NCBI GenBank assembly: GCA_021821445.1
Contig: JAKACK010000001.1
Coordinates: 1 to 64,000, forward strand
Length of the DNA stretch: 64,000 bases
Source: Microcaldota archaeon
GTDB taxonomy: Archaea; Micrarchaeota; Micrarchaeia; Micrarchaeales; Micrarchaeaceae
Direction of reading: 5' to 3'
The position numbers and the translations under genes are program-made. Each line of letters opens with the position of its first letter. Position 1 is the first letter of the stretch. Below the pieces are notes generated by a model. That model did no database searches, was not told where the DNA came from, and was given only the letters and a program-made list of their open reading frames with translations. Shown in pieces: positions 7,043 through 52,295 of the stretch.

Positions 7043-7049
7043 TGGTATA

Positions 7050-8780
7050 TTGATTGACAATAATATTGAAGAAATAATCTATGAGTACACAATAAAAAAT
7101 GCTTATCAGTACAAACAAGCAAATGTTGGGAGTGTTCTAAGCAAGGTTATTTCAAGAGTACCTGATTCTAAAAATAATATCAAAGAACTTAGAGATAGAA
7201 TTAATGAGGTTGTTTTAAAAGTAAATTCTTTTAGCAGAGAAAAGATAGAATTAGATTATCAAAAGTATAATGATGAATTCAAAAAAGAGTATGAAGAGAA
7301 AGTAAAAGCAACTTCAAAACCAAATCTAACAATAGAAGGGGCAGAAAAAGGGAATGTTATAACCAGATTCCCCCCAGAACCTGGTGGTTATATACACATA
7401 GGTAACGCAAAACAATGCATATTAAGCGATGAAATTTCTAAAATTTACGAGGGTAAAATATATCTTTATTGGGATGATACAAACCCAGAGAAATGTAAAG
7501 AGGAATATGTTGAAAGTATAAAAAAGGATTTAAATTGGTTAGGTATAAAATTTGATAAGGAATATTTTGCAAGTGACAACATAGATGTCATATATAGTTA
7601 TGGCAAAAAATTGATAAAGGAAGGAAATGCTTATGTATGCACTTGCAGCATAGATGAAATAAATAAGAATAGAATGGATAGATTGGAGTGCAAGGATAGA
7701 TTTAGATCGCCTGATAAAAATTTAAAATTATTTGAAGATATGATAGATAATAAAATTGATGAAGGTAAGGCAATTGTTCGTTTTAAAGGAGATATGAAAT
7801 CGGATAATTCTGCTATGAGAGATCCATCCTTATTTAGAATAAAAAAGATACCACATTATAGGAAGGGCACTAAATATGTAGTATGGCCCACATATCATAT
7901 GAATACACCTGTATTAGATTCTTTAAATGGTATTACAGATGTAATTAGAAGTAAAGAGTATGAAGTCTGGGATAGTGTTGATAAGCTTCTATTATCAAAA
8001 TTGAATTTAAGAATTCCAAGATTTCATTATGAAGCCAGACTTAATATAGAAGGTACAATAACCCAAAAAAGGGTTATAAGACAATTTATGGCAGACAAGT
8101 ATATAACAAAATGGGATGATCCTCGTTTAGTCACTATAGCTGCTATGAAAAGACGTGGTATAATGCCACAAGCCATTAGAAATTTTGTATTGAGGTTTGG
8201 ATTAAGTAAAACAGATACAACAGTAAAAATGAATATGCTACTTGATGAAAATTCAAGAATAATAAATCCAATTGCAAAACATTTGTTATTTGTAGATAAT
8301 CCTATAAAATTAAGTATAAACGAGCTTGAAAGAGATATAAAAATTAAACTTTTACCACAGAATAATGAAGATAATTCTTATAGAGAGTATAAATTAATAA
8401 ATGAGATTTATTTAAGCAAAACTGATTTGGATAAACTCACTTTTGGAAAACCAGTTAAACTCAAAGATTTATTTACAATAATTTATGATAAAGATAAAAA
8501 ATTTGCACACATTGATGAATCTGCAAAATATGAAATTACAATACCTTGGGTACCTACCAATAGACCTTTGAATGCAGATATATTAATTCCTGGGAATATA
8601 GTTGATAAAAATGGTAATTATAATGCAGATAGTTTAATTCATAGGAATGGTATTATTGAGCAGTATGCAAAAAACTTAAGTCAAGGTGATATACTTATGC
8701 TTGAAAAATATGGGTACTTTATAGTTGATAATATGTCAACCCCTACAAATCAAATAAATTTAATAAAAATTTCTAATTGA
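7050..8780 (+). CDS. gltX: Glutamyl-tRNA synthetase (archaeal type, TTG start)
   Basis: NVITRFPPEPGGYIHIGNAKQCILSDEISKIYEGKIYLYWDDTNPEK...WDDPRLVTIAAMKRRGI. Confidence 0.95.
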   Translation: MIDNNIEEIIYEYTIKNAYQYKQANVGSVLSKVISRVPDSKNNIKELRDRINEVVLKVNSFSREKIELDYQKYNDEFKKEYEEKVKATSKPNLTIEGAEKGNVITRFPPEPGGYIHIGNAKQCILSDEISKIYEGKIYLYWDDTNPEKCKEEYVESIKKDLNWLGIKFDKEYFASDNIDVIYSYGKKLIKEGNAYVCTCSIDEINKNRMDRLECKDRFRSPDKNLKLFEDMIDNKIDEGKAIVRFKGDMKSDNSAMRDPSLFRIKKIPHYRKGTKYVVWPTYHMNTPVLDSLNGITDVIRSKEYEVWDSVDKLLLSKLNLRIPRFHYEARLNIEGTITQKRVIRQFMADKYITKWDDPRLVTIAAMKRRGIMPQAIRNFVLRFGLSKTDTTVKMNMLLDENSRIINPIAKHLLFVDNPIKLSINELERDIKIKLLPQNNEDNSYREYKLINEIYLSKTDLDKLTFGKPVKLKDLFTIIYDKDKKFAHIDESAKYEITIPWVPTNRPLNADILIPGNIVDKNGNYNADSLIHRNGIIEQYAKNLSQGDILMLEKYGYFIVDNMSTPTNQINLIKISN

Positions 8781-9482
8781 TTATTTTTTCTGTAATACCG
8801 CAAACATATGTAATTTATCAAAAGGGTTTAGATCTATTTTTTCTTTTACTTCATATAAATCCTTTAACTTTTCTAATTCACTTTTAAAAACATCTTTTGG
8901 GTTTTTTCCAACATCAATACTTTGAGATTTTATTATGAAATAAGCATATCCTCCTTTTTTAAGAAATCTTGTATTTTTTATAAGAATTCCTGCTTGATCC
9001 CTAGCTGAAGCATCTTGATATATTACATCACAACTTTCATCAGGTATTATTTTACTATAATTGTCAACCTCCATAGCATCACTTAAAATTGGTAACATAT
9101 TATTCCTCAATTCACATACCTCTACTAGATCACGCATGCTTCTTTTTGATATTTCTACACAATAAACTCTACCTGTTCTACTTATTATATCGCTTACATG
9201 ACTGGGTGTTGTTCCATTTGCTGCTCCTAAATAGAGTACTTTTGATCCAGGCTGAATTTTTACCTCTTTTAGATTATTCAGTATAGCAGCTGCAAGCTTA
9301 CTTCTATATGGGTTCCACATCCTATATTCTATATCTTTATAAGTTATCAATTCTTCCCCATAAACCTTATGCCCTTTAACAAAATTTTTAGTTACAAGCT
9401 TAGTCCCTATTTTATATATATTATCGAATACTTCAGTTATATTTTCATTATTTTGAGCTATTGTATATCCTTCATTATTCAT
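8781..9482 (-). CDS. flpA: Fibrillarin-like rRNA/tRNA 2'-O-methyltransferase
   Basis: VLYLGAANGTTPSHVSDIISRTGRVYCVEISKRSMRDLVEVCELRNNMLPILSDA...DVIYQDASARDQAGI. Confidence 0.97.
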   Translation of the reverse strand: MNNEGYTIAQNNENITEVFDNIYKIGTKLVTKNFVKGHKVYGEELITYKDIEYRMWNPYRSKLAAAILNNLKEVKIQPGSKVLYLGAANGTTPSHVSDIISRTGRVYCVEISKRSMRDLVEVCELRNNMLPILSDAMEVDNYSKIIPDESCDVIYQDASARDQAGILIKNTRFLKKGGYAYFIIKSQSIDVGKNPKDVFKSELEKLKDLYEVKEKIDLNPFDKLHMFAVLQKK

Positions 9483-35936: not shown

Positions 35937-38327
35937 TCATAATAACATATCATCTAAATGCTCAGTACTAATTAATTTTATTAGACCTGAATAAAGATAT
36001 ATTCTGAATAGATCCATATTTGCTGAAGCTGAATTGTACATTTTTTCTTTGAAATTATAGAGTTCTGTGTCATTTAAAAATACTATGTATGTCTTTGTAT
36101 CTACTGAAACAGGTAATGATTTGAATTTAGATGTTTCTGAATATATTATTATATAATCACGGCTATCTTTTGTAGCTATAACCATGTCTGCAGATTCATT
36201 TTTATCGAGATCTGTAAACGTTATCGCGTGTGTTACCATAAATATTCTCAACTTTTTAAATATCGCAAGATACTTGATATCGTGATTGCTTAATGCAATC
36301 CATGACTTTGGAGCATACATATCATCTATATTTATTACGTCCCCATGCTTTACCATTTCATTTAATATCATTTCAACATTGCTTAAAGTTAGATTTACTG
36401 CAATATTATTATAACGTATATAATTTGATATTGCATTTCTGAATTCTAATTCAGAAAGAGGCATATAATTCCAATGATAATATGTATTCAACTTATTAAA
36501 TACACTTAACAATTCTGACTCTTTTATTGTTATCTCGGGTTTTTTACTCTTAGGAAGATTTGATATATCCACATAAAATTCATCCTTATTAACTGGTTTT
36601 ACAAATACTACCAATATAAAAGCAAATAAAAATACTATTATGGCTTCTATATATTGGGAACTTATATGTAAGGTTGGAGGAACTACAACATTTGTATAAT
36701 CATGGTTATAAACGTACAGGTTAAAAGTTGAGGATTTTGTTAATTTAGGTGCAGATTTTGGTAAAATATATAAGACTGAACCATTTTTAATCGTACCATT
36801 TTGTTTATATTTTCCGTTAACATTTACACTGTAATTCATCCCTGATAATGGAACTCCATTAGATTTTACGCTAAATTTATAGGTATTATTTGAAAGTTCT
36901 ACCGAGTATAGATTAACAGTTATATTACTTATGGAAAATAGGGCAGATGCATATTCGAATTCATAATTGTTTTTTAATATAGCTATATATTGTCCAGGGG
37001 GAAGATTAAATTTGGCATTTTGTATAAGTGAAAAATTACCAGAAGCTTCAAAAGGTGTTAAATATATATCTTTATATCTAGTCATATTCATGTAGTAAAT
37101 TGTTAAATGAGGTATTATGTTGATTAGTTTAGATGAATTTGTAAATATTGTTATAGCTATAGGATTAGAAGTTCCAGGAATTATCTTACTTGGGATTCCT
37201 AAAGTACCTGAAATTTTATAATCTGGTTTAAATGTCATGTATTTATATATTGAATTATTTGTTAGGTTATAAGTTTTGTTTGTATAATAAATTACTCTTA
37301 CAGTGTAGTTATTTAATTTACTTATGAGTGAATAGTTGTAGGTTATTTTTGAACTGTTTAATAATACACCAAGACTCCCCGAGGCATTTTTTTGTATTCC
37401 TATATTGGTTTTGAAAGTGCCTGAAATATAATTTGGTACCCAATAAAGTTGTAGTATTGATTTTGATATGTCCGCAGCAGAATCATTTTGAGATGGCCAA
37501 GCTGAAAGATAATTAGAAAATGCTATAATAGCCCCATTATAAACTTTTTCGTAAGTTACAGGTCCATATGGTATACCATTATTAAATGAAAATGTTGAGT
37601 TCGTAAAATAAAATTCACCTTTTACGGGGCCTCTTGGACTTGTAGAAAGATAACTAGGCATATTTTTATCAGGCAAAATTATCCCGTTTAATCCAACTAA
37701 ATTTGAAAAGCTTTTTCCAATATAGATTATATTTGTACCTTTCATTAATATATATGAAAGTATAGATGTATTTGATTCATTATATTTCAAAGCTAAAGCA
37801 GGATTCTCTTCTGATAAATTATAAGTATTCATTATATTATAAGGTAATAATCCATTAGGTATTATTAGTATAGAATTATTTGATATGTTTGTAATGTTTG
37901 AAATTGATACTATAGATATTTGAGAAGAATTTTTTATCACATTGTAGTTTATCAAATCTTTTTCTATATCTGAAATTTCTGCAGCCATATTTCCGCAATT
38001 TATACATTCATCAGTTGTATTCATTATATAGATAGTTTTATAGCTTGGAGGAGGTTCTTCTAATAGTGACTCGTTTACAAATATTGAGCTTACATTGGAA
38101 CCTTTATAATCAAATAATGTGAAAGGAATAATATATTTTCCATCATTTGAGAATAATAAATTTTGACCAACCAAATATAGACTTTCACTTGGTTTTATAT
38201 ATTTTAAATGAATTGGTGTTACAGTAGGTATTTTTGAAATAAGGCTAGATATATAGATAAAAGTAGCAGCTATAACTGCAATAATTACTACTGCTATGAT
38301 AATTACCATAATAAATTTTTTATTCAT
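35937..38327 (-). CDS. Large bitopic membrane protein of T4SS-like cluster (extracytoplasmic domain, internal TM, cytoplasmic wHTH-like tail)
   Basis: N-terminal TM; second TM YIEAIIVFLFAFILVVFVKPV; C-terminal NLTLSNVEMILNEMVKHGDVINID. Confidence 0.7.
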   Translation of the reverse strand: MNKKFIMVIIIAVVIIAVIAATFIYISSLISKIPTVTPIHLKYIKPSESLYLVGQNLLFSNDGKYIIPFTLFDYKGSNVSSIFVNESLLEEPPPSYKTIYIMNTTDECINCGNMAAEISDIEKDLINYNVIKNSSQISIVSISNITNISNNSILIIPNGLLPYNIMNTYNLSEENPALALKYNESNTSILSYILMKGTNIIYIGKSFSNLVGLNGIILPDKNMPSYLSTSPRGPVKGEFYFTNSTFSFNNGIPYGPVTYEKVYNGAIIAFSNYLSAWPSQNDSAADISKSILQLYWVPNYISGTFKTNIGIQKNASGSLGVLLNSSKITYNYSLISKLNNYTVRVIYYTNKTYNLTNNSIYKYMTFKPDYKISGTLGIPSKIIPGTSNPIAITIFTNSSKLINIIPHLTIYYMNMTRYKDIYLTPFEASGNFSLIQNAKFNLPPGQYIAILKNNYEFEYASALFSISNITVNLYSVELSNNTYKFSVKSNGVPLSGMNYSVNVNGKYKQNGTIKNGSVLYILPKSAPKLTKSSTFNLYVYNHDYTNVVVPPTLHISSQYIEAIIVFLFAFILVVFVKPVNKDEFYVDISNLPKSKKPEITIKESELLSVFNKLNTYYHWNYMPLSELEFRNAISNYIRYNNIAVNLTLSNVEMILNEMVKHGDVINIDDMYAPKSWIALSNHDIKYLAIFKKLRIFMVTHAITFTDLDKNESADMVIATKDSRDYIIIYSETSKFKSLPVSVDTKTYIVFLNDTELYNFKEKMYNSASANMDLFRIYLYSGLIKLISTEHLDDMLL

Positions 38328-38473: not shown

Positions 38474-39202
38474 TTATCCCTTCAATTGCAAATACCCTTC
38501 ACTAACCATTTTATTCAATATCTGCTCTACTCTTGATAAAGGAATATGATAATTATTTGAGAAGGCATCTAAATCTATAGTTTCGCTATGTCCATCTATC
38601 CAATCTTCTATCATTACCATTAATGACTGATCAGAATACTTTTGTAATTCATCTAAATCTGCTTTTAGCTTTTTATTTTCATTAGATAATTCAACAGCGT
38701 TAGAGGTAAGTTCTCTGTTTGATTTTTGGAGTTCTACATTTAAACGCCTTATTTCTCTATATTCTCCGAATAATGAATCGTAATTATTGAAAAGGGAGCT
38801 ATAACTTTGAGTCATTGAAGAAAGTACATCATCAAGTGAAGAATTTATATATGAGTACAATTTACGTTGATCGACAGCATAAATATCACTAACCAATGAT
38901 AGTATCTCTAATAGGGTTCTTATAACGTAAAGTTTTCTCATTTTTTTACTAGCGTCCATAGGTATTGTGTAATTCATAGATAATGAATTTTGTTTAAAAG
39001 TTATAACTATAAAAAGGAAAGGGTTCTTTTGCATATCCCAACTTTCTACAGATATTAAAACCAATGAATCAGTTTCTTGTTTTATCATAAAAGTTTTTAT
39101 TTGAGAAAACCTTTTTATCATTTCATCAAATGTGCTTACTAATCTGCTATTTAATAAGAATTCGTTAACTTCAGGTTTAATAATACCTATAGATTCTGCC
39201 AT
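38474..39202 (-). CDS. Coiled-coil protein with C-terminal wHTH-like motif (T4SS-like cluster)
   Basis: EYREIRRLNVELQKSNRELTSNAVELSNENKKLKADLDEL; HIPLSRVEQILNKMVSEGYLQLKG. Confidence 0.65.
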   Translation of the reverse strand: MAESIGIIKPEVNEFLLNSRLVSTFDEMIKRFSQIKTFMIKQETDSLVLISVESWDMQKNPFLFIVITFKQNSLSMNYTIPMDASKKMRKLYVIRTLLEILSLVSDIYAVDQRKLYSYINSSLDDVLSSMTQSYSSLFNNYDSLFGEYREIRRLNVELQKSNRELTSNAVELSNENKKLKADLDELQKYSDQSLMVMIEDWIDGHSETIDLDAFSNNYHIPLSRVEQILNKMVSEGYLQLKG

Positions 39203-39253: not shown

Positions 39254-39691
39254 TTATTCTCCATTTTTATCTCTCTCCTTTATCATTTTTATAAACTTTT
39301 TTGGTATTTCTACTGCGGGCATATATGAAAATAATGAGAATACATAAAGTATCAATACCATTAATATTCCAAATCCAATAGATGGTAAAGAACCTCTAGA
39401 AACAAAGATTAACATCATTGCAAATAATATCCCTATTATCAAATAGAATATTTGCCTCTTAACATACTTATTTCTCTCTTTTTGATACTTTAGATAGCAT
39501 TCTTTGCACACTACTAAATGATACCCTTTTTCATTTTTTGTTATATTATGTTTAAACCATCTTATAGAGTTTAGTACAAAGTCATCTTTAACAGCAAGTC
39601 CAGGTTTTGCCTTTCCACATATTATACATCGATTATTTGATATATCTAATTTTTTAGCTTTTTTCATTTGAACTTTCACCAGAAAAATCAA
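39254..39691 (-). CDS. Zinc-finger-like protein with two TM segments (T4SS-like cluster)
   Basis: CIICGKAKPG...VVCKECYLKY then FYLIIGILFAMMLIFVSRG / IGFGILMVLILYVFSLFSY. Confidence 0.65.
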   Translation of the reverse strand: MIFLVKVQMKKAKKLDISNNRCIICGKAKPGLAVKDDFVLNSIRWFKHNITKNEKGYHLVVCKECYLKYQKERNKYVKRQIFYLIIGILFAMMLIFVSRGSLPSIGFGILMVLILYVFSLFSYMPAVEIPKKFIKMIKERDKNGE

Positions 39692-39986
39692 TTGTTGCTT
39701 CGAATATTCTTCCAGGTTCTACTGAGAGTTTACTTTCATCTTCATCATTCATTAATCTACTTATAACTACGTCATCCATACCTAATCTCCTGAGTACGTT
39801 TATTATATCAGAATTTGATACTCCAGATTTTTCCATTAGTGATATGAAAGCAATCGCATTTATATGACGGTGCGATTTTTCCAAATCTCCAAAAAATCTT
39901 GCAATTGTATTTTCACTTATACTGTAATTTATCAGAAGCTTTCTAAGCTCTACTTTTGTTATTGAAAAAGAATTCTTTTCAGCCAT
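39654..39986 (-). CDS. Standalone copy of the ~70-aa ATPase C-terminal module
   Basis: ELRKLLINYSISENTIARFF...SGVSNSDIINVLRRLGMDDVVISRLMN aligns with the tail of the 505-aa ATPase. Confidence 0.75.
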   Translation of the reverse strand: MAEKNSFSITKVELRKLLINYSISENTIARFFGDLEKSHRHINAIAFISLMEKSGVSNSDIINVLRRLGMDDVVISRLMNDEDESKLSVEPGRIFEATIDFSGESSNEKS

Positions 39987-41496
39987 TCTTTACACCTGAA
40001 GTAGATATTATCCTGGTTATAAGTATATCTTCTATACTCATACTTTTAAGTAAAGATACTATATCATTGATACTTAAATTGTTAGCATATAATAACTTTA
40101 CGAAATCTGACATATTCATAGATCTATTCTGGCTATTTAGTTTTGTAAATATTGTGTTTATACTATCTCCGCTTACATTGTAATTTATAAGCTTATTCTT
40201 CAATTCATCCGCTTCAAATTGATAATCCTTTGGAAGTATATTTGCGGATACTTCTGCCTGTGTTAATATATCTGATAGACTTATAGTGTATATGTAAAGT
40301 GGTTCTTCCCCTTTTATTTTATCTAATACAAATACTTCCGGAAACTTCATAGAAGTTGTAAATGACATATCTACAGCTGCCTGCCCTACTCCAAAATTAC
40401 TTATTTCAGATCTTATAAATGAAGAGAAATTCAAAGATCCTTGTATATAATCTAAGAACTTTTCGAATTTTATTCTTAAAATAAAATTGGTACCAACGTT
40501 TGAATATATTGCTTCGTTTATATCTGTAGGATTTTGAGTAGCTACAAGAAGACCGAATTGATATTTTCTACCCTCCCTAACTATTGTTATGGCGTCACTT
40601 CTGTCATCACTAGCAACTTTCCAAGCTTCATCAAGAACAACAAATGTCTTTATACCCTTAGTCTCTGAAAACCCTTCAAATCTCATCTTTTCTTTTAAAG
40701 TTTGTAAAATGAATAAGGTAGCAAGTGCTCTAAATGTATCGTCAGATAATCCTGAAAGATCTATATCAACCATACCAGAAGTTGCAAGTTTTGAAATATT
40801 TAGAGTACTTTTTCTTGAAAAGAAATCTTCACCAGGTCTAGCAAACTGCCTTAATCTGTATATAGCATTTTCTAATTCCGCAGGGTATTCATACCCTCCA
40901 GATTGCAACTGCTCTTGTAATAGAGCTATAACATCTTTTAATGTTGGAGCATCTTTATTTTCAGGAGGTCTTTCTGCGATATTAAAACCGAAATTCGCGT
41001 ATGACTGCTCCAATGCTTCTTCAGTAAGTCTTCTTTGCTCAGGATAAGATGATATATCAGTTAAAATCTCAAAAGCACCTATGATCTGCTTTACCCTATC
41101 TAAAGGTTTCATGCCTGCAAGATCAAGTATGTTCAAATAGTCTCCCTTACCTAAAGAAATTATAGTTCCCCCACTTTGTTTTACCCATGATTTATATTCT
41201 GAAGCCCAATCTATTATAACTGCATTTGTATCCCATATGTAGTTTGCTCTTATTAAGAAAGTTTTTACAAAATAGCTTTTTCCTGCTCCTGTTATACCAA
41301 CTACTGCAATATGAGGGTTAGTCACATTATCGAAATTCCAAGCGAATGGTATTTTAAATATTTTAGTATTACCTATATAAATTGAATTTAAGGGATCATT
41401 TAGAAGTATACTTGAAGGAGGTTCTGGAGGTCTAGATAAAAAGGACCTTTTTGAAATCTCATTACTCATCACATGCTGCATCTTAACGATTGTCAT
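39979..41496 (-). CDS. VirB4/TraC-like (HerA/FtsK superfamily) secretion ATPase
   Basis: Walker A VVGITGAGKSYFVKTFL; VIIDWASEY; Walker B FVVLDEAW; REGRKYQFGLLVATQNPTDI. Confidence 0.93.
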   Translation of the reverse strand: MTIVKMQHVMSNEISKRSFLSRPPEPPSSILLNDPLNSIYIGNTKIFKIPFAWNFDNVTNPHIAVVGITGAGKSYFVKTFLIRANYIWDTNAVIIDWASEYKSWVKQSGGTIISLGKGDYLNILDLAGMKPLDRVKQIIGAFEILTDISSYPEQRRLTEEALEQSYANFGFNIAERPPENKDAPTLKDVIALLQEQLQSGGYEYPAELENAIYRLRQFARPGEDFFSRKSTLNISKLATSGMVDIDLSGLSDDTFRALATLFILQTLKEKMRFEGFSETKGIKTFVVLDEAWKVASDDRSDAITIVREGRKYQFGLLVATQNPTDINEAIYSNVGTNFILRIKFEKFLDYIQGSLNFSSFIRSEISNFGVGQAAVDMSFTTSMKFPEVFVLDKIKGEEPLYIYTISLSDILTQAEVSANILPKDYQFEADELKNKLINYNVSGDSINTIFTKLNSQNRSMNMSDFVKLLYANNLSINDIVSLLKSMSIEDILITRIISTSGVKNG

Positions 41497-41543: not shown

Positions 41544-42377
41544 TTATTGCTGTTGATCGAATAAATCTGAAGCATCCTTTATAGTTAACGGTAATGAAAA
41601 GTTAAATTTGAACATTTCATATAATTCTCTACCTACTATTCTCTTTAATTCAACATCAAATGAGCTAAATGCAATTTGTATTGATGAAATTTGAGAGGAT
41701 AATTTATCGAGAGCTTCTTGTTCACTTATACCTACTGATGTGGTCTCTATGTACATTATCGTAGCTATGGGTTTTTCCCCTTTTGATATTGTATCAATTT
41801 TTGACTGTAATATTCTTATCTGCCTTTGTATATTGGTTATTACTGTTTCATTTGAATTTCCTTGAAGTGCTTTTGAAAGTTGGTATTCTTGATAAGACCT
41901 TTTTCCTTCAAGTTCATCCCTTGTTGATTGCGTATTTAAACCTATTGAAAATACATGAAATTTAAATGGAAAACCAAGACTTTTTACTATGTTCTCCCAT
42001 AACTCTGGTGATTGTGCCATTCTCTCTTCATCATCTTCAGGTGGGTTTTCGTTTTTAAATGTATAGGGAAATAGATTGGCAGTTACATAGCCAGTTGCGT
42101 AATATAAGCTATTTACATTTTTTATTATAGCATCTTGCTTTTTATTTATCATATAATTATTTGCGGGTTTTATTGTTATTCCTAAAATTGAAGTTAGCCC
42201 TGTAAATAATACATAATCAATTTGACTCATAACTCCTATTATAAGTGCGGTTATAAACATGAATAGAAGTGCAAGATCGTAATATATCCCTTTAGCAATA
42301 CTACCTAATAATGCAAAAGAGATTAATAATATTACTAATGTAAGTGCTAAATATATAAGAGTAGTATCATCCATCAT
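41544..42377 (-). CDS. Membrane protein with VirB4 N-terminal-domain-like soluble region (paralog-like to next gene)
   Basis: N-terminal TMs, then ~180-aa soluble region rich in helices; overlaps upstream gene by 4 nt. Confidence 0.6.
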   Translation of the reverse strand: MMDDTTLIYLALTLVILLISFALLGSIAKGIYYDLALLFMFITALIIGVMSQIDYVLFTGLTSILGITIKPANNYMINKKQDAIIKNVNSLYYATGYVTANLFPYTFKNENPPEDDEERMAQSPELWENIVKSLGFPFKFHVFSIGLNTQSTRDELEGKRSYQEYQLSKALQGNSNETVITNIQRQIRILQSKIDTISKGEKPIATIMYIETTSVGISEQEALDKLSSQISSIQIAFSSFDVELKRIVGRELYEMFKFNFSLPLTIKDASDLFDQQQ

Positions 42378-43204
42378 ATCACTTTACTTTCTAAATCTTT
42401 ATTCATCTGTGCGGTCATTGTTGTGTATGGAATTAAATATTCGGGTTCTACGAATTTTAATAACTCGTTTCCAGTAATTACACTTATAGGTACTCCGAAT
42501 ATAGTACTTAAACCGGATATTAATTCTCTTGCTTTTTGCTGTGCTTCTGCCACAGCTTCATATTCTTTGAAACCCATTGCGGATATTGTTACATAGGATA
42601 TCTCTTCGTATGAGGTAACTTTTGTCATACTGTCTAGTAGATTACGCAGCATTGCAGATTTCCCCTTATAATGATCTAATCTTGATTTATCAGGATTTTT
42701 ATTTAAGTTTATTTGAGCAATTTCATTTTCAGCTTGGGCTATCGCATCTTTAAGTTCTAATATATATTCATCTTTATTCATTATTAATACTTCAGTTGTA
42801 AATCTTGCAGGATCTTTTGTTATTCCTATAGCTCTACTAACTTTTTCAGAAAACTCTAATTTATGCTCATCATCCATTTCAGTTGATGATACATATATGG
42901 GTATAAGTATGTAAACAGTTGCTATAAATTTGTCATTTACTTTTTTCAATATACAATCTGCAGAAGCTGAAAGCCAATATGCGTCTTCATTACTTAAAAT
43001 TATATTTTTACTATGGGATTTAAAGATTGGACCAACTAAGTAGGAGTAATATCTGGAACTAAAAGCAAATATATCAAATATAAGCGCTATTAAAAATATA
43101 ATGAACTTTAATATGTATCCATAACTGATAGGTAAAATTACTGCTAAAAGTATAAGAAATAATGATATTGCATAGTCTATGCCAAAAATCATGTTTTTAT
43201 TCAA
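42374..43204 (-). CDS. Membrane protein with VirB4 N-terminal-domain-like soluble region
   Basis: Two TMs then ISNEDAYWLSA-type region...LELKDAIAQAENEIAQINLNKNPDKSRLDHYKGKSAMLRNLLDSM...EEISYVTISAMG...AQQKARELISGLSTIFGVPISVITGNELLKF. Confidence 0.6.
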   Translation of the reverse strand: MNKNMIFGIDYAISLFLILLAVILPISYGYILKFIIFLIALIFDIFAFSSRYYSYLVGPIFKSHSKNIILSNEDAYWLSASADCILKKVNDKFIATVYILIPIYVSSTEMDDEHKLEFSEKVSRAIGITKDPARFTTEVLIMNKDEYILELKDAIAQAENEIAQINLNKNPDKSRLDHYKGKSAMLRNLLDSMTKVTSYEEISYVTISAMGFKEYEAVAEAQQKARELISGLSTIFGVPISVITGNELLKFVEPEYLIPYTTMTAQMNKDLESKVI

Positions 43205-43262: not shown

Positions 43263-44489
43263 TCAGATGAATCCTCTCATCCTACCACTACTATAACCTG
43301 ATCCACTTAAGAATTGTGCTAGAGTTTGAACAAATGCATAGGTTACTGCGATTATCATTGCAGGATAAAATAATACCATAAGCCAAAATGAAGCCATACT
43401 TGATTCAATTGAAGCCATATCTTTAGAGGCAGGACTGGATGCTGATGCATCTCTAGCGGATGCAAGTCCTTGACTGTTAATCTGTTGTGATTGTTCTGTT
43501 GTTACTGTAAGATGTGTCAAAAATGATGATGCTGAAAAGTAGTATGCTGCTGCAAATAATGTTGGAACTACTAAAAAGAAGGCTATACCAAATGCGATCA
43601 TCATACCCCCTAAACCCCTAGTTGGTGTTAGTATCCTTAATACAACTCCAGGTATTATAAATACAGGTATAGCTGCTACTGAAAAGAATATTAATAGGTA
43701 ATATTCTGAATATAACAATGCGAGCCCATCTGATAAAAATCCCATTATGACCGCGGCAGGTTCTATTGCGGTTAATTCTAATGTTAAAACAGAAACACCA
43801 TAAATACTCTCTGCTGCACCTACAATTCCCTTAGCCTCCCCTAAAGTAATACCTCCTGCTGTAATTGAAATAGAAGTTATATACCTATCACGAACATATA
43901 TAAAAAATAGATTTGAATAAAGATTTTCTATAGAATCTATAGTATTATCCATAAGATGGAATGCTGTTGCATAAGGGTTTATATTTCCTACATATATACC
44001 AGGTACTAAACCTAAGGTTACTGCACTTATATAAAGAAATAAAAATATTATTAAGCCACTTGCAAATACTTCGTATAATTCGCCTACCGCTAAATTTCTA
44101 ATTCTATTACTTCTAAATACTACACCTAATGCAAACAATATTATGTCTATAAAAAGAGCAACTAAAACTACTAATACTGCTATAGGTAAATAATTACTCC
44201 AAGATTTATAAATTTCATTATTTATTGGACAGTACCAAGGTTCATCTTTTTCTATTGTGGACCTTATTGAATTTGGGACTAGTCCACAATTTACATTACT
44301 GCTTGAAGAACTAGAACTAAAATAGATTGTTTGTATTGATGATGATTTAACTGCAGAATTCATTTCAACTGATTGAGTATAAATAGAATTAGCGGCCACA
44401 AGTATTATTAAGAGTATTATCATAATTGGGAGTGATATTTTAGGGGATGTAATTCTGTATATAGATTGCTTGAGATTTTTATGTTTCAT
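43263..44489 (-). CDS. Polytopic VirB6/CedA-like membrane protein, paralog 1
   Basis: VVLRILTPTRGLGGMMIAFGIAFFLVVP signature. Confidence 0.7.
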   Translation of the reverse strand: MKHKNLKQSIYRITSPKISLPIMIILLIILVAANSIYTQSVEMNSAVKSSSIQTIYFSSSSSSSNVNCGLVPNSIRSTIEKDEPWYCPINNEIYKSWSNYLPIAVLVVLVALFIDIILFALGVVFRSNRIRNLAVGELYEVFASGLIIFLFLYISAVTLGLVPGIYVGNINPYATAFHLMDNTIDSIENLYSNLFFIYVRDRYITSISITAGGITLGEAKGIVGAAESIYGVSVLTLELTAIEPAAVIMGFLSDGLALLYSEYYLLIFFSVAAIPVFIIPGVVLRILTPTRGLGGMMIAFGIAFFLVVPTLFAAAYYFSASSFLTHLTVTTEQSQQINSQGLASARDASASSPASKDMASIESSMASFWLMVLFYPAMIIAVTYAFVQTLAQFLSGSGYSSGRMRGFI

Positions 44490-44827
44490 GTAATCGCCAT
44501 ATTTCTAAAAAAGCACACTTCGTTTACTTTGAACTGTCTTAAAATTTCTTTAATTTGAATTTCCTCATTTTTATTGATTTGGTTTTTGTTATTTTTTATA
44601 TTAATTTCTGCATTTAACTCATGTAGTAAATTTAATCTGTATCCCTTTATAACATTTGTAAATTCTTTAATAGGTTTAATTAAAATTGCCCTAATCTTGT
44701 TATATAAGTTTATTTTTTGAAAACCTGAATTATAAAACCTTTCATAAAGGTAAAATTGTGATTTTAAATCTAAACTAAATTTTGAATCTTTGTATAACAT
44801 ACATGTATAAAACTTTGTCAATTTCAT
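44486..44827 (-). CDS. Small soluble basic protein in T4SS-like cluster
   Basis: ORF overlaps next gene by 4 nt (ATGA). Confidence 0.5.
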   Translation of the reverse strand: MKLTKFYTCMLYKDSKFSLDLKSQFYLYERFYNSGFQKINLYNKIRAILIKPIKEFTNVIKGYRLNLLHELNAEINIKNNKNQINKNEEIQIKEILRQFKVNEVCFFRNMAIT

Positions 44828-44961
44828 ATATTTACCTTTTTATAACCTAATTTTAATTGGACATCATTTTGCAAAAAATGGTATGAACATTTGTACGCTT
44901 TTTCACAATATCTTATTAATTGTATAATATTATATAAATTATCTAATTTGATTTTTATCAT

Positions 44962-46155
44962 TTATACCACACCGGATAATAATACCATAAAGCTTATCTT
45001 TTCACCTATTGCAGATGAAAAATCAATCATAAATGCATCTAGTATTATAAAATTTAAAAATGGTAAGAAGGTGAATCCTACAATAGTGTATCCAACATCA
45101 TTAAGCAAGTAACCAAATATATAGCTAAATAAATTTGTTACTGTTGTAAGGGGACCAGTAATAGAGCTACTACTAGAACTTGCAGAATTTAATACCGCTG
45201 TTGTAGGTACAAATGCTGGATTTAAAATAGCACCGTAAGATATTGATATTAATAATGGATATATTAAACCCAATCCTAAACCTAAAGCTATAAGAGACCC
45301 ACCAAAACTTCTAGAAAATCCTAGTGTCCTAATAACTAACCCCAAAGATACAAAAATTATTAAAAAGAATAGTGATCCGGTAAGAAGTATCATTTGCAAT
45401 TCGTTTAAAATTAGGAATGTTAATAAGAAGCTTATTATGTCTCCGAATAATGATTCTGTAGAACTTGGAGTTAATGAATCAAGACCCATTCCAATAACAA
45501 ATATATCTTCATTACCAAAAAATGAACCTGGCATATATGCCATTTCTGTACCTGGTTCAAGTCCAGAAGCAAAACCTATTGTGTATGTTGTATATAAAAC
45601 ACTATATGCATATGTGTTAAAGGTACCTAAATCACATGCAGATAAATTAAATAAAGTATTTATAGAGCTAGTATTACATTGATAAGGTAATAAACCTACA
45701 TCGTTATAGGAGGGTTTTGGATTCATCATAAATAATGAAATTAATCCTATGAAAATTATAAGCATAACTATGCTTAAAAATGCTTCGTATATTTGGTTTT
45801 TAGACCACAATTTTGAATCTATGCTATTTGTAATACCACTTATTCCATATACAAGTGCTGCAACAAACATTACAGCCAATGCAAATATAAAGGCATATAA
45901 AAGCCAAATTGAATTAGAAGGAAGATTTGCTAATGATGAATATTCTAAACTATGTATATTTATAATTGAACTAGCAAGATCTGCATCCATTGTAAATTTA
46001 TTTAATTCAAATGGTATGATTGTAGAGTCTGATATTGTTTTTTGTGGTAATAAATTGTTATTTACGTTGTTAATATGTGTATATTTAATACCGAATAAAG
46101 CTACCGCTATTATTAATATTGCAATAAATTCAATCATTAATTTTGCTTTATTCAT
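44962..46155 (-). CDS. Polytopic VirB6/CedA-like membrane protein, paralog 2
   Basis: LVIRTLGFSRSFGGSLIALGLGLGLIYP signature. Confidence 0.7.
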   Translation of the reverse strand: MNKAKLMIEFIAILIIAVALFGIKYTHINNVNNNLLPQKTISDSTIIPFELNKFTMDADLASSIINIHSLEYSSLANLPSNSIWLLYAFIFALAVMFVAALVYGISGITNSIDSKLWSKNQIYEAFLSIVMLIIFIGLISLFMMNPKPSYNDVGLLPYQCNTSSINTLFNLSACDLGTFNTYAYSVLYTTYTIGFASGLEPGTEMAYMPGSFFGNEDIFVIGMGLDSLTPSSTESLFGDIISFLLTFLILNELQMILLTGSLFFLIIFVSLGLVIRTLGFSRSFGGSLIALGLGLGLIYPLLISISYGAILNPAFVPTTAVLNSASSSSSSITGPLTTVTNLFSYIFGYLLNDVGYTIVGFTFLPFLNFIILDAFMIDFSSAIGEKISFMVLLSGVV

Positions 46156-46193
46156 ATTTTATCATTCTTTATTTTATTTTTCCATATTTAAAT

Positions 46194-47276
46194 TTATATC
46201 AAATTTCTAAAACTTCCACCAGAGCTTAAGCTAGGTGATCCTAATAAATCTCCTAATGTATCTATGAAATCAAATGCTACTATTAAAGATATTACTAAAG
46301 ATATTAATAGATAAAGCATAGGAGCAATAAGACCGACTATAACCTCATCTATCATACCGGAACCATTAGCTACAGCTTTTGTTTCACTGTTTATAAATGA
46401 ACCAGATAATGCACTTGGTAAACTTGTCGGGTATAGGGATGTTGGAATGGATGAATTTGCTATTGGACTGATAGATGCTGCACCTGAAGCGAATATAAAG
46501 AATAATGTTGGAAATATTATATAAAACCCTATAAATACCCCTAAAAATGAACCTCCTGCCGCTTTTGTCCAAGGTAATGTACGTAATATTATACCAACAA
46601 AAAAGAATAATGGTGCAATTGTATACACAACATCTAATATTATAATACCACCAAAAGACAAGCCTGTTATGGCCATTGATACTGTAACTAAAAGACCCAT
46701 TAAATTGCTCACATAACTAAGTCCTGAAAGAGGGCTATATCCATACCCAAACCATGTTGGCTCAATTGTTAAAGATAAGCTACCAAAAGCTTTCAATACA
46801 TCTTGGTATACTACTAACCCAATTGCATATGTTACTCCAGAACTTACACCTGTATAAAGTGTGTTACAATCATGTGTGTAAGTAGTTTCATTAAATACAC
46901 TACTTATCAAAGGTACACCTTTATTTAATGTTGAAGATGTAACTGCAAATGTACCTAATATTATTACAATTATTAAAACAGTTAAGAATACCTCACCTAT
47001 TTCGCTTTTGGAATATATTTTTAATTTTGGAAAATTCAAAACTCCTCCTATAGCCCACAGTATACCGCTAACAAAAAGCATTATGGTCATTATTATTAAT
47101 GATAAAACCATTAAATTGCTAAAAGAACTATAATTATGCACAGGATTTGTAGCGCTATACGCTGATTTACAGGCGTTTGGAGTTAATGATGATAGGAAAC
47201 TAGTAGATTGGGCACTTGTATTTGGAATTAAGAATAATAAAATTATAATCGATACCATAAACAATTTTAATTTCAT
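46194..47276 (-). CDS. Polytopic VirB6/CedA-like membrane protein, paralog 3, with Sec-like signal
   Basis: IILRTLPWTKAAGGSFLGVFIGFYIIFP signature. Confidence 0.7.
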   Translation of the reverse strand: MKLKLFMVSIIILLFLIPNTSAQSTSFLSSLTPNACKSAYSATNPVHNYSSFSNLMVLSLIIMTIMLFVSGILWAIGGVLNFPKLKIYSKSEIGEVFLTVLIIVIILGTFAVTSSTLNKGVPLISSVFNETTYTHDCNTLYTGVSSGVTYAIGLVVYQDVLKAFGSLSLTIEPTWFGYGYSPLSGLSYVSNLMGLLVTVSMAITGLSFGGIIILDVVYTIAPLFFFVGIILRTLPWTKAAGGSFLGVFIGFYIIFPTLFFIFASGAASISPIANSSIPTSLYPTSLPSALSGSFINSETKAVANGSGMIDEVIVGLIAPMLYLLISLVISLIVAFDFIDTLGDLLGSPSLSSGGSFRNLI

Positions 47277-48667
47277 ATTAATCTACCCAAACCTGCTAAG
47301 TTTACATCACCACCTAAAAGTCCTGAAAGACCGACTATACCTGAAAGTACTATAATTATATTCACTATAGGTAACCAATATGCAGTTATACCGATAATTC
47401 CATAGATATTATAAGAAGCGAATAAGGTATTTACCGCACCTTGAGTTGAACAATGCATATCAAGCCAGTAATCAAAAGTACTTACACTACCATTTGAATA
47501 ACCTCCTGCAACTGCAATGTCAGGACCTAATAATGCAGGATCGTCAGCCGCTATTAAAATTCCCGCTTCTTTTGTTATTAGGTCATTTCCTGGCCAACAA
47601 CCCATTTGACCGGTTACTTGTTCTATGCTAGGTTCATCATAAAAATTTAAATTATAGGTATTCATTGTATTATTATTGTATATCGGTGCTATGACATTAT
47701 TCAAAGTTATACTATTTACTGTTACTAAATCCCCATTAGTTATATTGTGATTTAATGATAAATATTCTATACTCATGATTAAAGGTAAGAAAATTATGAA
47801 TCCTACAGCTATTGCTATAAATAACCCTCCGAGTCTTCTCGTTAAAAATACAGACCTAAATACTAAACCTAAAAATAATAAGAATGGCCATAGATATAAA
47901 AATGATATTATAATTAGTAATTGGGCAGTAAATGATTCTAAAGCAGTATTAATTAATGCACCTAAAGTTAAGAATCCAGAGTAAATTGCAGAGTAACCTT
48001 CAAAAGGAGCAAATGAAAAACGCAAAAATGAATCGATCTCAAATGGTACAAAAGGTACAGAACAGGGTATTGAAAGAGGCCCTTCAGTTGGTTGTAAACA
48101 TACTGCTTCAGTGAGTTTAAGTTTACTTAAAAACCCAGTGTAAGCTTCAACTAAAAATAAGCTATTCATATTTTTAAATGTTTGATTTGTAACATTCGCA
48201 AGTATCACTGCAGAAGCAGCAACAGGGTAATCAATTTTCTCTGTAGTTGTAGTGGGGTTACTCACCATTTCACATAATCCAGGGAATGAATTTTTAGTAT
48301 TTTTATACCCACTTAAAATTGAATTTGATGAACTTAAAATAGTCATATTCGAATTGTCTTCAAGATTTGTACATATACTGTTAACTGTTGATGTTTTCAT
48401 TGAAGATGTAGTATTTAATATATTATAAAACATGGTTGAAAAAGTTAATAAGAAAAATATAACAAGCACAATTAATAGAGTACTTTCAAATAATTGTGAC
48501 ACTTCGCTTAATGCAGATTGCTTTACTGCATTATTATTTAGAATCGCTCCTACTATATACCATATACTAACTATTGATGCATCTATCGCAATAGCTAAAA
48601 CTACCAAAGGAAGTAGATTATCTTTTGTATTGGAAAAGGATGTAATTGCAAATACTAAATCTATCAT
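47273..48667 (-). CDS. Polytopic VirB6/CedA-like membrane protein, paralog 4
   Basis: LVFRSVFLTRRLGGLFIAIAVGFIIFLP signature. Confidence 0.7.
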   Translation of the reverse strand: MIDLVFAITSFSNTKDNLLPLVVLAIAIDASIVSIWYIVGAILNNNAVKQSALSEVSQLFESTLLIVLVIFFLLTFSTMFYNILNTTSSMKTSTVNSICTNLEDNSNMTILSSSNSILSGYKNTKNSFPGLCEMVSNPTTTTEKIDYPVAASAVILANVTNQTFKNMNSLFLVEAYTGFLSKLKLTEAVCLQPTEGPLSIPCSVPFVPFEIDSFLRFSFAPFEGYSAIYSGFLTLGALINTALESFTAQLLIIISFLYLWPFLLFLGLVFRSVFLTRRLGGLFIAIAVGFIIFLPLIMSIEYLSLNHNITNGDLVTVNSITLNNVIAPIYNNNTMNTYNLNFYDEPSIEQVTGQMGCWPGNDLITKEAGILIAADDPALLGPDIAVAGGYSNGSVSTFDYWLDMHCSTQGAVNTLFASYNIYGIIGITAYWLPIVNIIIVLSGIVGLSGLLGGDVNLAGLGRLI

Positions 48668-48677
48668 TCATTATCAC

Positions 48678-49829
48678 TTATACACTAGACCAAAATGATG
48701 CTGCACCATCAATTCCTGAATTAAGGGCTTTTGATAACCCCATTGCAAATGCAACAGTTACTATCAGATCAATACCAAACATAAATAATGCTGTAAACAT
48801 ATATTGACTTACCTCTTCTATTAGGTAATCGAATTGTAACATAACTTCAGGTGGTAACATACTTGTAACTTCGCTGGATAAAATTGTAGTATCTAATAGA
48901 GTATCTATAGATGGAGACGTAAATGTAGCTCCATTTACTGATGAAGTTGTTGAGTAACTTGTTGATTTTGTAAAAAATCCACTAGCAATTGCTGTATTCG
49001 CAACAAATGGAGTGTTTAAACAATTAGTACATGAGTAAACAGGATTGTTTGTACTAAATATGTAATTTATTGCATACGCATCAAAAGAAATCATCATCGG
49101 ATATATTAAGTATAGAGCTATTGCTAATGCTAATATGTCATTTGATGCTCTCCTAAGCCCTCCCCCCGAAGTAGAGAATATCCTCATTACTAATGCAACT
49201 GGAAGAACAACTGAAAATGCGGTATATTCAAATAATGGAATAGCTAACCATTGTAAAATAAGTGTACCTATTGAGATAACTAAGAAAGGAGCTATTATTA
49301 TTATGTAGGCATCAGAAATTACACTGTACATTGATCCTAAATCTGCACCAACAGTGGTAGATACAGTAAGTCCAGGTGTAGGGCTTAGATCTCCAGACTC
49401 TTTTGAAATTGTACTACTAAGAGCAGTCCATATCCTTGCATCAATCGCATAAGTCATAGAATATGTATACAAATTTGTTATTATACCTATACCCCTTGCA
49501 AATGCGAGATTGCCTATATAGTAATTTGCAAATTCAAATGGAGTAAGCTTAGTATTTATTAAACTTTGACTTAAACTAGTAGTCATATTACATGCGGTAC
49601 TTAAAAATGATGTCAAAACTAATAATATTATGACGCTTATAAATACTTGCATAAGCTCAGATTTAGCTACAGCAGTTAATTTTCCATTTAAAGAACTTGT
49701 TAATAATTTACTCAGTATATAGATGATAACTACAATTAGAATTGAGATAATCAACACTGCGAATATGATACCCATCCATTGGTTCACATATGTTGACCCT
49801 CCAAATAAACTACATGAATTTATATCCAT
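48678..49829 (-). CDS. Polytopic VirB6/CedA-like membrane protein, paralog 5
   Basis: LVMRIFSTSGGGLRRASNDILALAIALYLIYP signature (divergent). Confidence 0.65.
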   Translation of the reverse strand: MDINSCSLFGGSTYVNQWMGIIFAVLIISILIVVIIYILSKLLTSSLNGKLTAVAKSELMQVFISVIILLVLTSFLSTACNMTTSLSQSLINTKLTPFEFANYYIGNLAFARGIGIITNLYTYSMTYAIDARIWTALSSTISKESGDLSPTPGLTVSTTVGADLGSMYSVISDAYIIIIAPFLVISIGTLILQWLAIPLFEYTAFSVVLPVALVMRIFSTSGGGLRRASNDILALAIALYLIYPMMISFDAYAINYIFSTNNPVYSCTNCLNTPFVANTAIASGFFTKSTSYSTTSSVNGATFTSPSIDTLLDTTILSSEVTSMLPPEVMLQFDYLIEEVSQYMFTALFMFGIDLIVTVAFAMGLSKALNSGIDGAASFWSSV

Positions 49830-49837
49830 CTATACAC

Positions 49838-51082
49838 CTAAGCTATTTTGAATTTTCCTATACCTAATCTAACCCTTCCCCCTAATAACCTTGCTATTGA
49901 ATCTGAAGCTATTATAAGTATAATTAAATCAAATATTAATAATATAAACATTAATAAAACTGGCAATGTAACTGCTAATATGTAATTCCAGATAACAAAA
50001 TATGATGGATACGCTAAATTATCCATACCATAAGTCGCTCCTGTAGTAAACGAAGTATTAAATGGAGGAGTAATCTTTGTAGATATATCTTTTATGAATG
50101 TATCTTCACTAGCTTGAAATGCTAACGCAGATGCACCAACTACATCCGCACTTATACTACTACTGAATGAAAATGGAACTGAGCTTGGTAATGATAAAGA
50201 CACATATGATGTTATTGGAGCATTTATATATAATAAAAGTATTGGTAAGATTAATCCTAACCCTAAGCCTATACCTATAAATTCACCTCCGATACCTCTA
50301 ACAAATGGAAATGCTCTTAATATTATACCGATTGGTAAAAATATTGCTAGACCTAAAACGAACAGGGATTCTCCATTTATTTGAACAAAAAAATCAAGTA
50401 TAATATATAGTGGTATAATTATTATATCGCTTATATCTTTTAGAAATGATATTGGACTTGAACCATCAATGATATTAGTAACGTATAGATTTGCTATGCT
50501 ACCCGCGTCTAAAGATCCGAAAGAAGCAGTTATTATTGTTATAGGAAGAGGAAAATAAGAGCTTATACTAAGGCTTTTTATAGCACTTAAACCAATATTT
50601 AGACCATAAAGGTTATAAAAGGCGCTTTCTGTTATATTTGCTTCATTTACCATATAACAATCAGTATATTGGTATAAACCACCTAAAGAACCCTGTAATG
50701 AACTTGATGAACCTCCTGCTGAACAATTTGTAACTGGCGGATTTAGATATGCAATAGACCCTATTAAAAATATTATTGTGAATATAAGACCTATAACTAA
50801 AATACTTTTTGTGGTCTCCCATAATTCTCCTGTATACCATGCTTTAAGTCCTTCAAGGTTTAATATCTGGCTTATCATAAATGCTATTGCTATTATTGAT
50901 ACGGATATCAGTATACCTAAAAAGGATATTGGAAAAGCAGAGGTTATGCAAGAACCAATTGTTTCAGATTTACCTGTTATAATACATATAGGATTTGTTG
51001 TTGATTGTGCTGAAGGTAAACCTAAAAATATCATTAATAGTATTAGAAACAATATAGCATAAAATTTCTTCATAGTTACCAT
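49838..51082 (-). CDS. Polytopic VirB6/CedA-like membrane protein, paralog 6, with Sec-like signal
   Basis: IILRAFPFVRGIGGEFIGIGLGLGLILP signature. Confidence 0.7.
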   Translation of the reverse strand: MVTMKKFYAILFLILLMIFLGLPSAQSTTNPICIITGKSETIGSCITSAFPISFLGILISVSIIAIAFMISQILNLEGLKAWYTGELWETTKSILVIGLIFTIIFLIGSIAYLNPPVTNCSAGGSSSSLQGSLGGLYQYTDCYMVNEANITESAFYNLYGLNIGLSAIKSLSISSYFPLPITIITASFGSLDAGSIANLYVTNIIDGSSPISFLKDISDIIIIPLYIILDFFVQINGESLFVLGLAIFLPIGIILRAFPFVRGIGGEFIGIGLGLGLILPILLLYINAPITSYVSLSLPSSVPFSFSSSISADVVGASALAFQASEDTFIKDISTKITPPFNTSFTTGATYGMDNLAYPSYFVIWNYILAVTLPVLLMFILLIFDLIILIIASDSIARLLGGRVRLGIGKFKIA

Positions 51083-51122: not shown

Positions 51123-51857
51123 TCATTTAAGCATAGCAAATTTGCTAATATAGAATTCGCAAAGAAGAAGGACTAAAAATGGTAGTATGAAGATTGAATC
51201 AATTACCATTTGTAAATAACCGGATAATACAGGATTTAAGATAAAATCGAAAATAAATGCAGGTATACTTAATAATAATATGCCAAGAATTAAAAATACT
51301 AAAAAGTAATTTAATTTTTTAAAGAAAAATTTTGAACTTTGGATTACTGAATTTTTTATGCCTCTTTCTTCTATCACTATAGATGATGGAGCGTATAAGA
51401 AAAATGGTGTTAATATTATGGCAATTACGTATATTATTATAGAACCGTAATTATAATTATATAATATTAGATTTAAAAATAGGAGTACAAATGTAAAAAT
51501 TAATAGTACTACAAATACTCTTCCTATATACTTTTCTATTCCCTCAATTATATACCTATTTATTTTTACATCTGTTCTTTTTTGTTTCACTATTAAATTT
51601 ATTACGACTATTGCAAAACTTAAAAATAACGCGGAAAAAAGTGTTGACGCTATTATTACGATTAGGTCAATTAAATTGAAATTATAATAAATATTAAAGG
51701 ATCTCAAAAATATAGAACCTAAATCATTATATGTAGGTACAGAAGCGAATAGTGGTATTAGAAATGCAATTAAAAACGCTATAGAGAATAAAAGAAATAT
51801 TTTTAAATTATATAAATAGGTATTAGCTGTATATTTTATTATTTTATAAACACCCAT
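51123..51857 (-). CDS. Six-TM-like membrane protein in T4SS-like cluster
   Basis: Multiple hydrophobic segments; FFLYAPSSIVIEERGIKNSVIQSSKFFFKK. Confidence 0.6.
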   Translation of the reverse strand: MGVYKIIKYTANTYLYNLKIFLLFSIAFLIAFLIPLFASVPTYNDLGSIFLRSFNIYYNFNLIDLIVIIASTLFSALFLSFAIVVINLIVKQKRTDVKINRYIIEGIEKYIGRVFVVLLIFTFVLLFLNLILYNYNYGSIIIYVIAIILTPFFLYAPSSIVIEERGIKNSVIQSSKFFFKKLNYFLVFLILGILLLSIPAFIFDFILNPVLSGYLQMVIDSIFILPFLVLLLCEFYISKFAMLK

Positions 51858-51896: not shown

Positions 51897-52295
51897 TCAA
51901 GTTGTTGTATTTGAACATTGAGTTATTGCATTTGTATAGTTAGCCCCTCCTATAACGCCTAATATATAAGGCGCTACTATTGCTATTACTACTGCTATTA
52001 TACCTGCCATGATCATACCTGTACCATAACCCTGTACTCCTCCTCTAGATACTGCGGGTAATACATGACCTACTGCGTACATTACTGCACCTAATATTAC
52101 CAATACCAAACCTAATATGAATACTACTGTTTTAAGTGTACTCTCAATGCCACATATTTTACTTATTACAGCAGATGAAGTTGTTGCTGATGCAGTATTA
52201 AATAACATCGTTGATGCACTAAATAATAACAATAATAGCATAAATGCTATTCTGACAACATTATAAGTATCAACAGTCACAAGTTTTTTCTTCAT
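51897..52295 (-). CDS. VirB2/TrbC-like pilin candidate (two TM segments)
   Basis: Signal-like N-terminus, then ICGIESTLKTVVFILGLVLVILGAVMYAVGHVLPAVSRGGVQGYGTGMIMAGIIAVVIAIVAPYIL. Confidence 0.65.
   Translation of the reverse strand: MKKKLVTVDTYNVVRIAFMLLLLLFSASTMLFNTASATTSSAVISKICGIESTLKTVVFILGLVLVILGAVMYAVGHVLPAVSRGGVQGYGTGMIMAGIIAVVIAIVAPYILGVIGGANYTNAITQCSNTTT

Follow-up and report, generated by a model that had tools for sequence, protein, structure and literature searches.

Why does an archaeal chromosome carry six diverged copies of one membrane protein gene in a row, and what do they build? This question is raised by a stretch of 64,000 nucleotides (hereafter the window) from a Microcaldota archaeon (Micrarchaeota, a DPANN lineage; assembly GCA_021821445.1, contig JAKACK010000001.1, positions 1 to 64,000), in which six minus-strand open reading frames (ORFs) lie within 43263-51082 and are transcribed in the direction from P6 to P1. 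These six genes, here called the hexad, belong to an operon with the order Pil, M244, P6-P5-P4-P3-P2-P1, E276, E277, ATPase, U110, U145, U242, T796. A first-pass annotation had described the six proteins, with the lengths that we also find (Table 1), as products of an ancient serial duplication and perhaps subunits of a hetero-oligomeric channel. Our analysis indicates that the best explanation as a whole, to which we give a probability of about 0.62, is a chromosomal and vertically inherited machine similar to type IV secretion systems (T4SS), sharing its overall architecture with the archaeal Ced/Ted systems and with bacterial conjugation machines; in it, the VirB6/CedA-like channel became the P1 to P6 set.

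The relationship among the six proteins was examined with hhalign, using ortholog groups of 29-31 sequences each that had been built from 30 relatives. Every one of the 15 pairs among P1 to P6 was significant (probability 96-99.5%, E-values from 3e-9 to 3e-22), and control comparisons with other membrane families of the same operon gave probabilities below 10%, except for weak matches of transmembrane regions between Pil and P5 and between E277 and U145. This comparison of hidden Markov models had been named beforehand as able to refute the kinship; its outcome confirms it, and the six P proteins are ancient paralogs. Each of them has the central motif that had been claimed; in P5 it takes the variant form GGGLRRASND in place of R-x-x-GG. 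A pattern derived from the motif matches exactly these six among the 39 long open frames of the window; since this pattern was composed after inspection of the six proteins, the independent tests carry more weight.

Differing topologies had been named as a second refuting outcome. The hydropathy profiles of all six proteins agree in one layout with 6-8 hydrophobic segments, and the structure was predicted for P1 alone. In some of the proteins the N-terminus is hydrophobic. Transmembrane segments TM1 and TM2 are joined on the cytoplasmic side by a loop that carries an E-x-x-E/Q motif, and TM3 and TM4 by one that carries an R-(x)5-R-x-x-G motif; large outer loops link TM2 to TM3 and TM4 to TM5, and the chain ends in a cytoplasmic tail. 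The predicted side of the membrane follows from the K/R content. The examples given previously for an N-proximal motif had not been listed in gene order. Over 152 aligned P proteins, the most constant residues (P1 numbering) are P309, R285, R291, G294 and E137. Between P1 and P2 the window also contains an ORF of 113 amino acids on the same strand (44486-44827), which has no match in the relatives, whose P2 and P1 genes are separated by almost nothing; it looks like a local insertion or a decayed gene.

Every complete hexad cluster examined across the class contains exactly six genes (56/56), counting the window, 29 clusters from Micrarchaeales, 12 (L169-L180), 13 (L192-L204) and one from the ARM-1 strain. 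Among the Micrarchaeales loci 29 of 30 have six genes, as do 13 of 14 further clusters from other families, and in both cases the remaining one is at a contig end. These two interrupted clusters (L063 and L205) have five genes each. Across the clusters examined, the copy number was always either one or six.

Phylogenetic trees, constructed with FastTree and with Shimodaira-Hasegawa-like supports, were used to follow the hexad positions, which are numbered from P6 (position 1) to P1 (position 6). In the first tree (152 proteins, 25 clusters), positions 2, 3, 5 and 6 formed single clades, with position 3 at 25/25, and the position label changed 6 times, compared with at least 86 times in shuffles. 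In the second tree, with 39 clusters, positions 2 and 5 were again single clades (39/39 each), position 3 reached 36/39, and 10 label changes were observed as against at least 135 in within-cluster shuffles. Several genomes from other families of the class have two clusters, both of which keep six genes. These two hexads fall into separate sets; for both sets, and for the two other groups as well, monophyly holds at six of six positions, with low support in places. The position clades and the monophyly of the hexad sets at each position indicate that the hexad and its gene order predate these families. The ancient serial duplication proposed for the locus is therefore firm, with positions 2 and 5 each forming one clade over all 39 clusters, and the trees show that the whole hexad was later duplicated as a unit in other orders, where a second full set was kept.

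In one of the hexad sets (L170, L172, L175, L177, L179, L192, L197) the proteins at position 3, and sometimes those at neighbouring positions, are very long. These hexads are often located beside ORFs of more than 1000 amino acids, two of which (at L170 and L177) were scanned and had no Pfam match. Of four scanned large ORFs near hexads other than that of the window, three had no Pfam family and the fourth encodes a housekeeping carbamoyl-phosphate synthase. Since these large neighbours gave either no family or a housekeeping enzyme, no effector is proposed.

The one-copy state corresponds to a compact operon with one P gene, one E gene and the ATPase gene, usually with a pilin gene adjacent (L181, L182, L188, L191). 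The same operon is present in the window's own genome (L212), in ARM-1 (L213) and in A_DKE (L214), and both complete cultured-strain genomes that were checked carry this minimal Pil-P-E-ATPase operon beside the hexad system. The single-copy P protein matches all six hexad groups (E-values from 4e-16 to 5e-26) and the single-copy E protein matches both E276 and E277, indicating that one-gene and six-gene forms of the same channel occur in one cell. The ATPase of the single-copy operon has CedB/CedD as its best matches. At L212 the operon lies near a gene for a HerA-like ATPase of 756 amino acids (6517-8787), and a similar arrangement is found in A_DKE.

Nearly all of the 80 named relatives recovered with the ATPase profile bear the label Candidatus Micrarchaeota, ARM-1 and Candidatus Micrarchaeum sp. 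A_DKE among them, and a few bins have other archaeal labels, such as Marsarchaeota. A scan of genome contigs with the single P6 sequence gave no relatives, although the ATPase profile did find them. Within the same order, 112 of 120 genomes have the family, and phylum-wide a profile of the six proteins detected it in 260 of 296; some genomes (e.g. G013, G076, G094) gave a single match, which may reflect loss or incomplete assembly. A P6 ortholog is found at the same position in all Micrarchaeales loci whose stretch extends that far. Operon order is kept in the fetched relatives of two families as far as their stretches reach, except in L044, which has rearranged flanking genes, and in the named loci except for one moved T796-U242 pair. 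The gene for topoisomerase VI-B, which adjoins T796 in the window, was found in 64 related loci, which marks this as a fixed chromosomal locus and, together with the fixed gene order, disfavours a mobile element. In ARM-1 the ATPase-U110-U145-U242-T796 block (L126 10001-15590, L215) is apart from the hexad, which is at about 343-350 kilobases of the chromosome; the remaining loci that have a hexad nearby show no such separation.

The identity of the machine is indicated by the genes accompanying the hexad. The ATPase matched the NCBIfam models VirB4_plasma (7e-20), CedB (3e-19), CedD (2e-17) and TraC (6e-16), as well as CD1110, all far below the equivalog cut-offs and thus indicating superfamily-level membership only; in Pfam it matched DUF87 and AAA_10. 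E276 and E277 are paralogous (hhalign 97%, E-value 3e-11). A fold search with the AlphaFold2 model of E277 (predicted local distance difference test, pLDDT, 81.6) returned R388 TrwK/VirB4 as the top three PDB hits (probability 0.99, E-value 0.043). We read E276 and E277 as a VirB3-like hairpin plus a VirB4 N-terminal domain, detached from the ATPase, an identity suggested for E277 by the fold match of its predicted structure and for E276 by its paralogy to E277. The pilin of the single-copy system was similar to the Pfam family PF18895 T4SS_pilin (E-value 0.0012, below the gathering score), and Pil is homologous to this pilin (7e-13). Pil could also be aligned with the N-terminal hairpin (TM1-loop-TM2) of P5 (E-value 4.9e-5, 68%) and weakly with the other P proteins. 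A comparable relation is reported for the Ced system, where the CedA1 pilin resembles the N-terminal region of CedA (Beltran et al., PMC9905601), the likeness being judged from the published description. Taken together, the classification of the hexad operon as a T4SS-like machine of the Ced/Ted type is well supported and highly probable. A hetero-oligomeric channel is a good inference because the copy number is one or six and a VirB4-like ATPase, proteins like the VirB4 N-terminal domain and a T4SS-type pilin are found alongside. That part of the first-pass annotation thus holds as an inference, and the T4SS-like nature of the machine had been missed.

The kinship of P1 to P6 with VirB6 is more weakly indicated, by topology, context and a weak fold match, and P1 to P6 are putative members of that family. 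In the fold search with the AlphaFold2 model of P1 (pLDDT 80.5, predicted template modelling score 0.73), R388 VirB6 (7o3v) had the highest TM-score among the 50 matches listed (0.34/0.46). Several observations weigh against the VirB6-like channel or against one ring formed by all six proteins. The match of P1 to VirB6 is weak (E-value 1.1, rank 27) and no PDB hit was significant; moreover, P1 to P6 match neither the VirB6/TrbL model (PF04610) nor any Pfam or NCBIfam family or PDB sequence. A genome search with PF04610 gave a sole hit (E-value 0.53), to a 44-amino-acid frame outside the locus, and the P, E and Pil profiles found nothing meaningful among PDB sequences. In the second tree, positions 1, 3, 4 and 6 are split into several clades. 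In the genomes with two hexads only one E gene is detectable, at a single matching ATPase locus away from both hexads, which is a poor fit to the simplest one-ring stoichiometry. Finally, VirB6 of R388 is a homopentamer (PMC9259494), so the six genes could represent five ring subunits and one other protein.

With these points considered, we give even odds to a more specific model, in which one copy of each paralog forms an asymmetric hetero-hexameric ring, derived from a homo-oligomeric ancestor that survives as the one-copy operon, and serves for exchange between cells, with the host or with kin. P1 to P6 would replace the single VirB6/CedA protein and form a pseudo-sixfold ring in register with the hexameric ATPase, VirB4 assemblies being sixfold (PMC9259494, PMC12624023). 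The ATPase would act as the VirB4/CedB motor, its ring docked onto the P membrane ring through E276 and E277 as detached membrane anchors. The conserved cytoplasmic loops (the E137 region and R285/R291/G294) would face the motor, and the divergent outer loops may have position-specific roles. Pil would be a VirB2/CedA1-like pilin that the machine extracts in order to build a pilus or conduit, and DNA or protein cargo might travel between the symbiont and its host or other cells nearby, with cargo, direction and partner all conjectural. Relaxase (PF03432) and VirD4 (PF02534) were absent from 8 genomes in which the controls were detected, with other relaxase families outside the search, and ComEC (PF03772) was also absent from 8 genomes. 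Classical conjugation and ComEC-type competence are disfavoured accordingly; the remaining candidates are DNA exchange of the Ced kind and a transfer system directed at the host.

Three other explanations have to be weighed. The one that survives best accepts the T4SS-like machine and proposes a pentameric VirB6-like ring of five P proteins, with the sixth as a plug, an accessory or an assembly factor. It is favoured by published descriptions of VirB6 rings as pentamers, by the five VirB6 paralogs of Rickettsia (PMC2653234) and by the exceptional length of position 3, which reaches 1143 amino acids; against this, all six proteins have the same core motif and no single position is consistently lost, and we regard this arrangement as unlikely. 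Still less probable are separate homo-oligomeric channels, one per P protein, differing in substrate, stage or partner and sharing one ATPase. Such channels would agree with the strong divergence of the outer loops among the six paralogs and with the several families in which two unlinked hexads seem to share a single ATPase locus, but independent channels would be expected to be gained or lost individually, whereas none of the 56 complete clusters has two to five genes and the order is frozen. The least probable explanation, that the six are subunits of another membrane complex (e.g. an Mrp-like antiporter or other transporter) beside a HerA-type ATPase, draws on the missing Pfam and NCBIfam matches of P1 to P6 and the non-significant VirB6 fold match, and is contradicted by the identities of the ATPase, E proteins and pilin, by the minimal four-gene Pil-P-E-ATPase operon and by the lack of any match to a transporter family.

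Table 1. Genes of the hexad operon in the window and the compact operon of the same genome.
Feature	Coordinates	Strand	Length (amino acids)	Description
P6 (hexad position 1)	49838..51082	-	414	Polytopic, putatively VirB6/CedA-like; ORF, paralogous to P1-P5
P5 (position 2)	48678..49829	-	383	Pilin-like N-terminal hairpin
P4 (position 3)	47273..48667	-	464	Largest extracytoplasmic loop (about 170 amino acids)
P3 (position 4)	46194..47276	-	360	ORF, paralogy, topology
P2 (position 5)	44962..46155	-	397	ORF, paralogy
P1 (position 6)	43263..44489	-	408	ORF, paralogy, AlphaFold2 model
Pil	51897..52295	-		Signal sequence and two-transmembrane pilin-like protein, VirB2/CedA1-like; conserved P..KG..QGY..GM..GG loop
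M244	51123..51857	-		Conserved six-transmembrane protein; adjoins the hexad in most loci; not homologous to P1-P6
E276	42374..43204	-		Two-transmembrane hairpin and soluble domain; E277 paralog
E277	41544..42377	-		Two-transmembrane hairpin and predicted VirB4-N-terminal-domain-like fold
ATPase	39979..41496	-		VirB4/CedB-like, HerA/FtsK superfamily, without N-terminal domain of its own
U110	39654..39986	-		Small protein like the ATPase C-terminal tail; order conserved
U145	39254..39691	-		Cys-rich (C..C / C..C) N-terminus and two transmembrane segments; order conserved
U242	38474..39202	-		Coiled-coil-like, conserved operon member
T796	35937..38327	-		About 530-amino-acid extracytoplasmic domain between two transmembrane helices, cytoplasmic C-terminal domain; ends conserved block
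Compact operon Pil-P-E-ATPase	L212 (contig C32) 10572-14109			Window's genome; one P gene

Among the smaller genes of the operon, U110 has 28% identity to residues 425-498 of the ATPase (E-value 1e-7) and is apparently a duplicated ATPase tail domain kept as a separate small protein. U145 showed a weak PrgI/VirB3 match (Pfam PrgI, E-value 0.042, under the cut-off). Extra pilin-like proteins were observed near the locus (L054:11870-13933 and L041:16670-17293); one of them, a 687-amino-acid frame, includes a region similar to a pilin and might be a fusion with a tip or adhesin protein.

How ultrasmall DPANN archaea and their hosts exchange material is an open question, for which the hexad machine is a concrete and nearly class-wide candidate that the cultured strains ARM-1 and A_DKE carry in their genomes. 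A channel encoded by either one gene or six, the two forms occurring together in one cell, offers a clean natural case of the passage from a homo-oligomeric to a hetero-oligomeric channel, and the hexad bears on the unexplained five-to-six symmetry mismatch of VirB6 and VirB4 in conjugation machines. If the hetero-hexameric ring is real, most of the class would have kept a T4SS-like channel whose symmetry matches that of its hexameric ATPase. Our literature search, with subscription journals and preprints mostly outside it, found no description of a T4SS-like system in Micrarchaeota, and a variant with a strict six-gene channel set is apparently undescribed.

The locus shares features with several known systems and differs from each of them. 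T4SS-like machinery in ultrasmall host-dependent microbes has been reported for Patescibacteria, where it mostly occurs without a relaxase (PMC12102498), and proposed as the VirB4/SPEARE T4SS of nanohaloarchaea (PMC10266531); in the passages of these two articles that were consulted, no comparable six-paralog channel set was found. With the conjugative T4SS of R388 (PMC9259494) the likeness lies in the VirB4 fold match of E277 and in the top TM-score of VirB6 for P1 among the matches listed, whereas R388 has a homopentameric VirB6, a VirB4 of one polypeptide, and outer-membrane parts, VirB5, VirB8 and VirB10 that were not recognised at the Micrarchaeota locus. The rvh T4SS of Rickettsiales (PMC2653234) also contains highly diverged VirB6 paralogs, vertically kept in host-associated microbes, but these are five extended bacterial proteins, whereas those of Micrarchaeota are six and archaeal, have been duplicated all together and occur alongside a one-copy form. 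The Ced system of Sulfolobales and the Ted system of Thermoproteales (PMC9905601, PMC11868833) are likewise archaeal and chromosomal, with a VirB4-like ATPase, a VirB2-like pilin and a polytopic VirB6-like channel. The Ced system splits the VirB4 N-terminal domain between CedB and CedD, and has CedE as a second paralog of CedA (PMC9905601, PMC11868833). In contrast to these systems, with their one or two channel paralogs, the Micrarchaeota locus has six in fixed order, the putative VirB4 N-terminal domain on a membrane-anchored protein of its own (with two paralogs in the order to which the window belongs), and the extra conserved proteins M244, U110, U145, U242 and T796.

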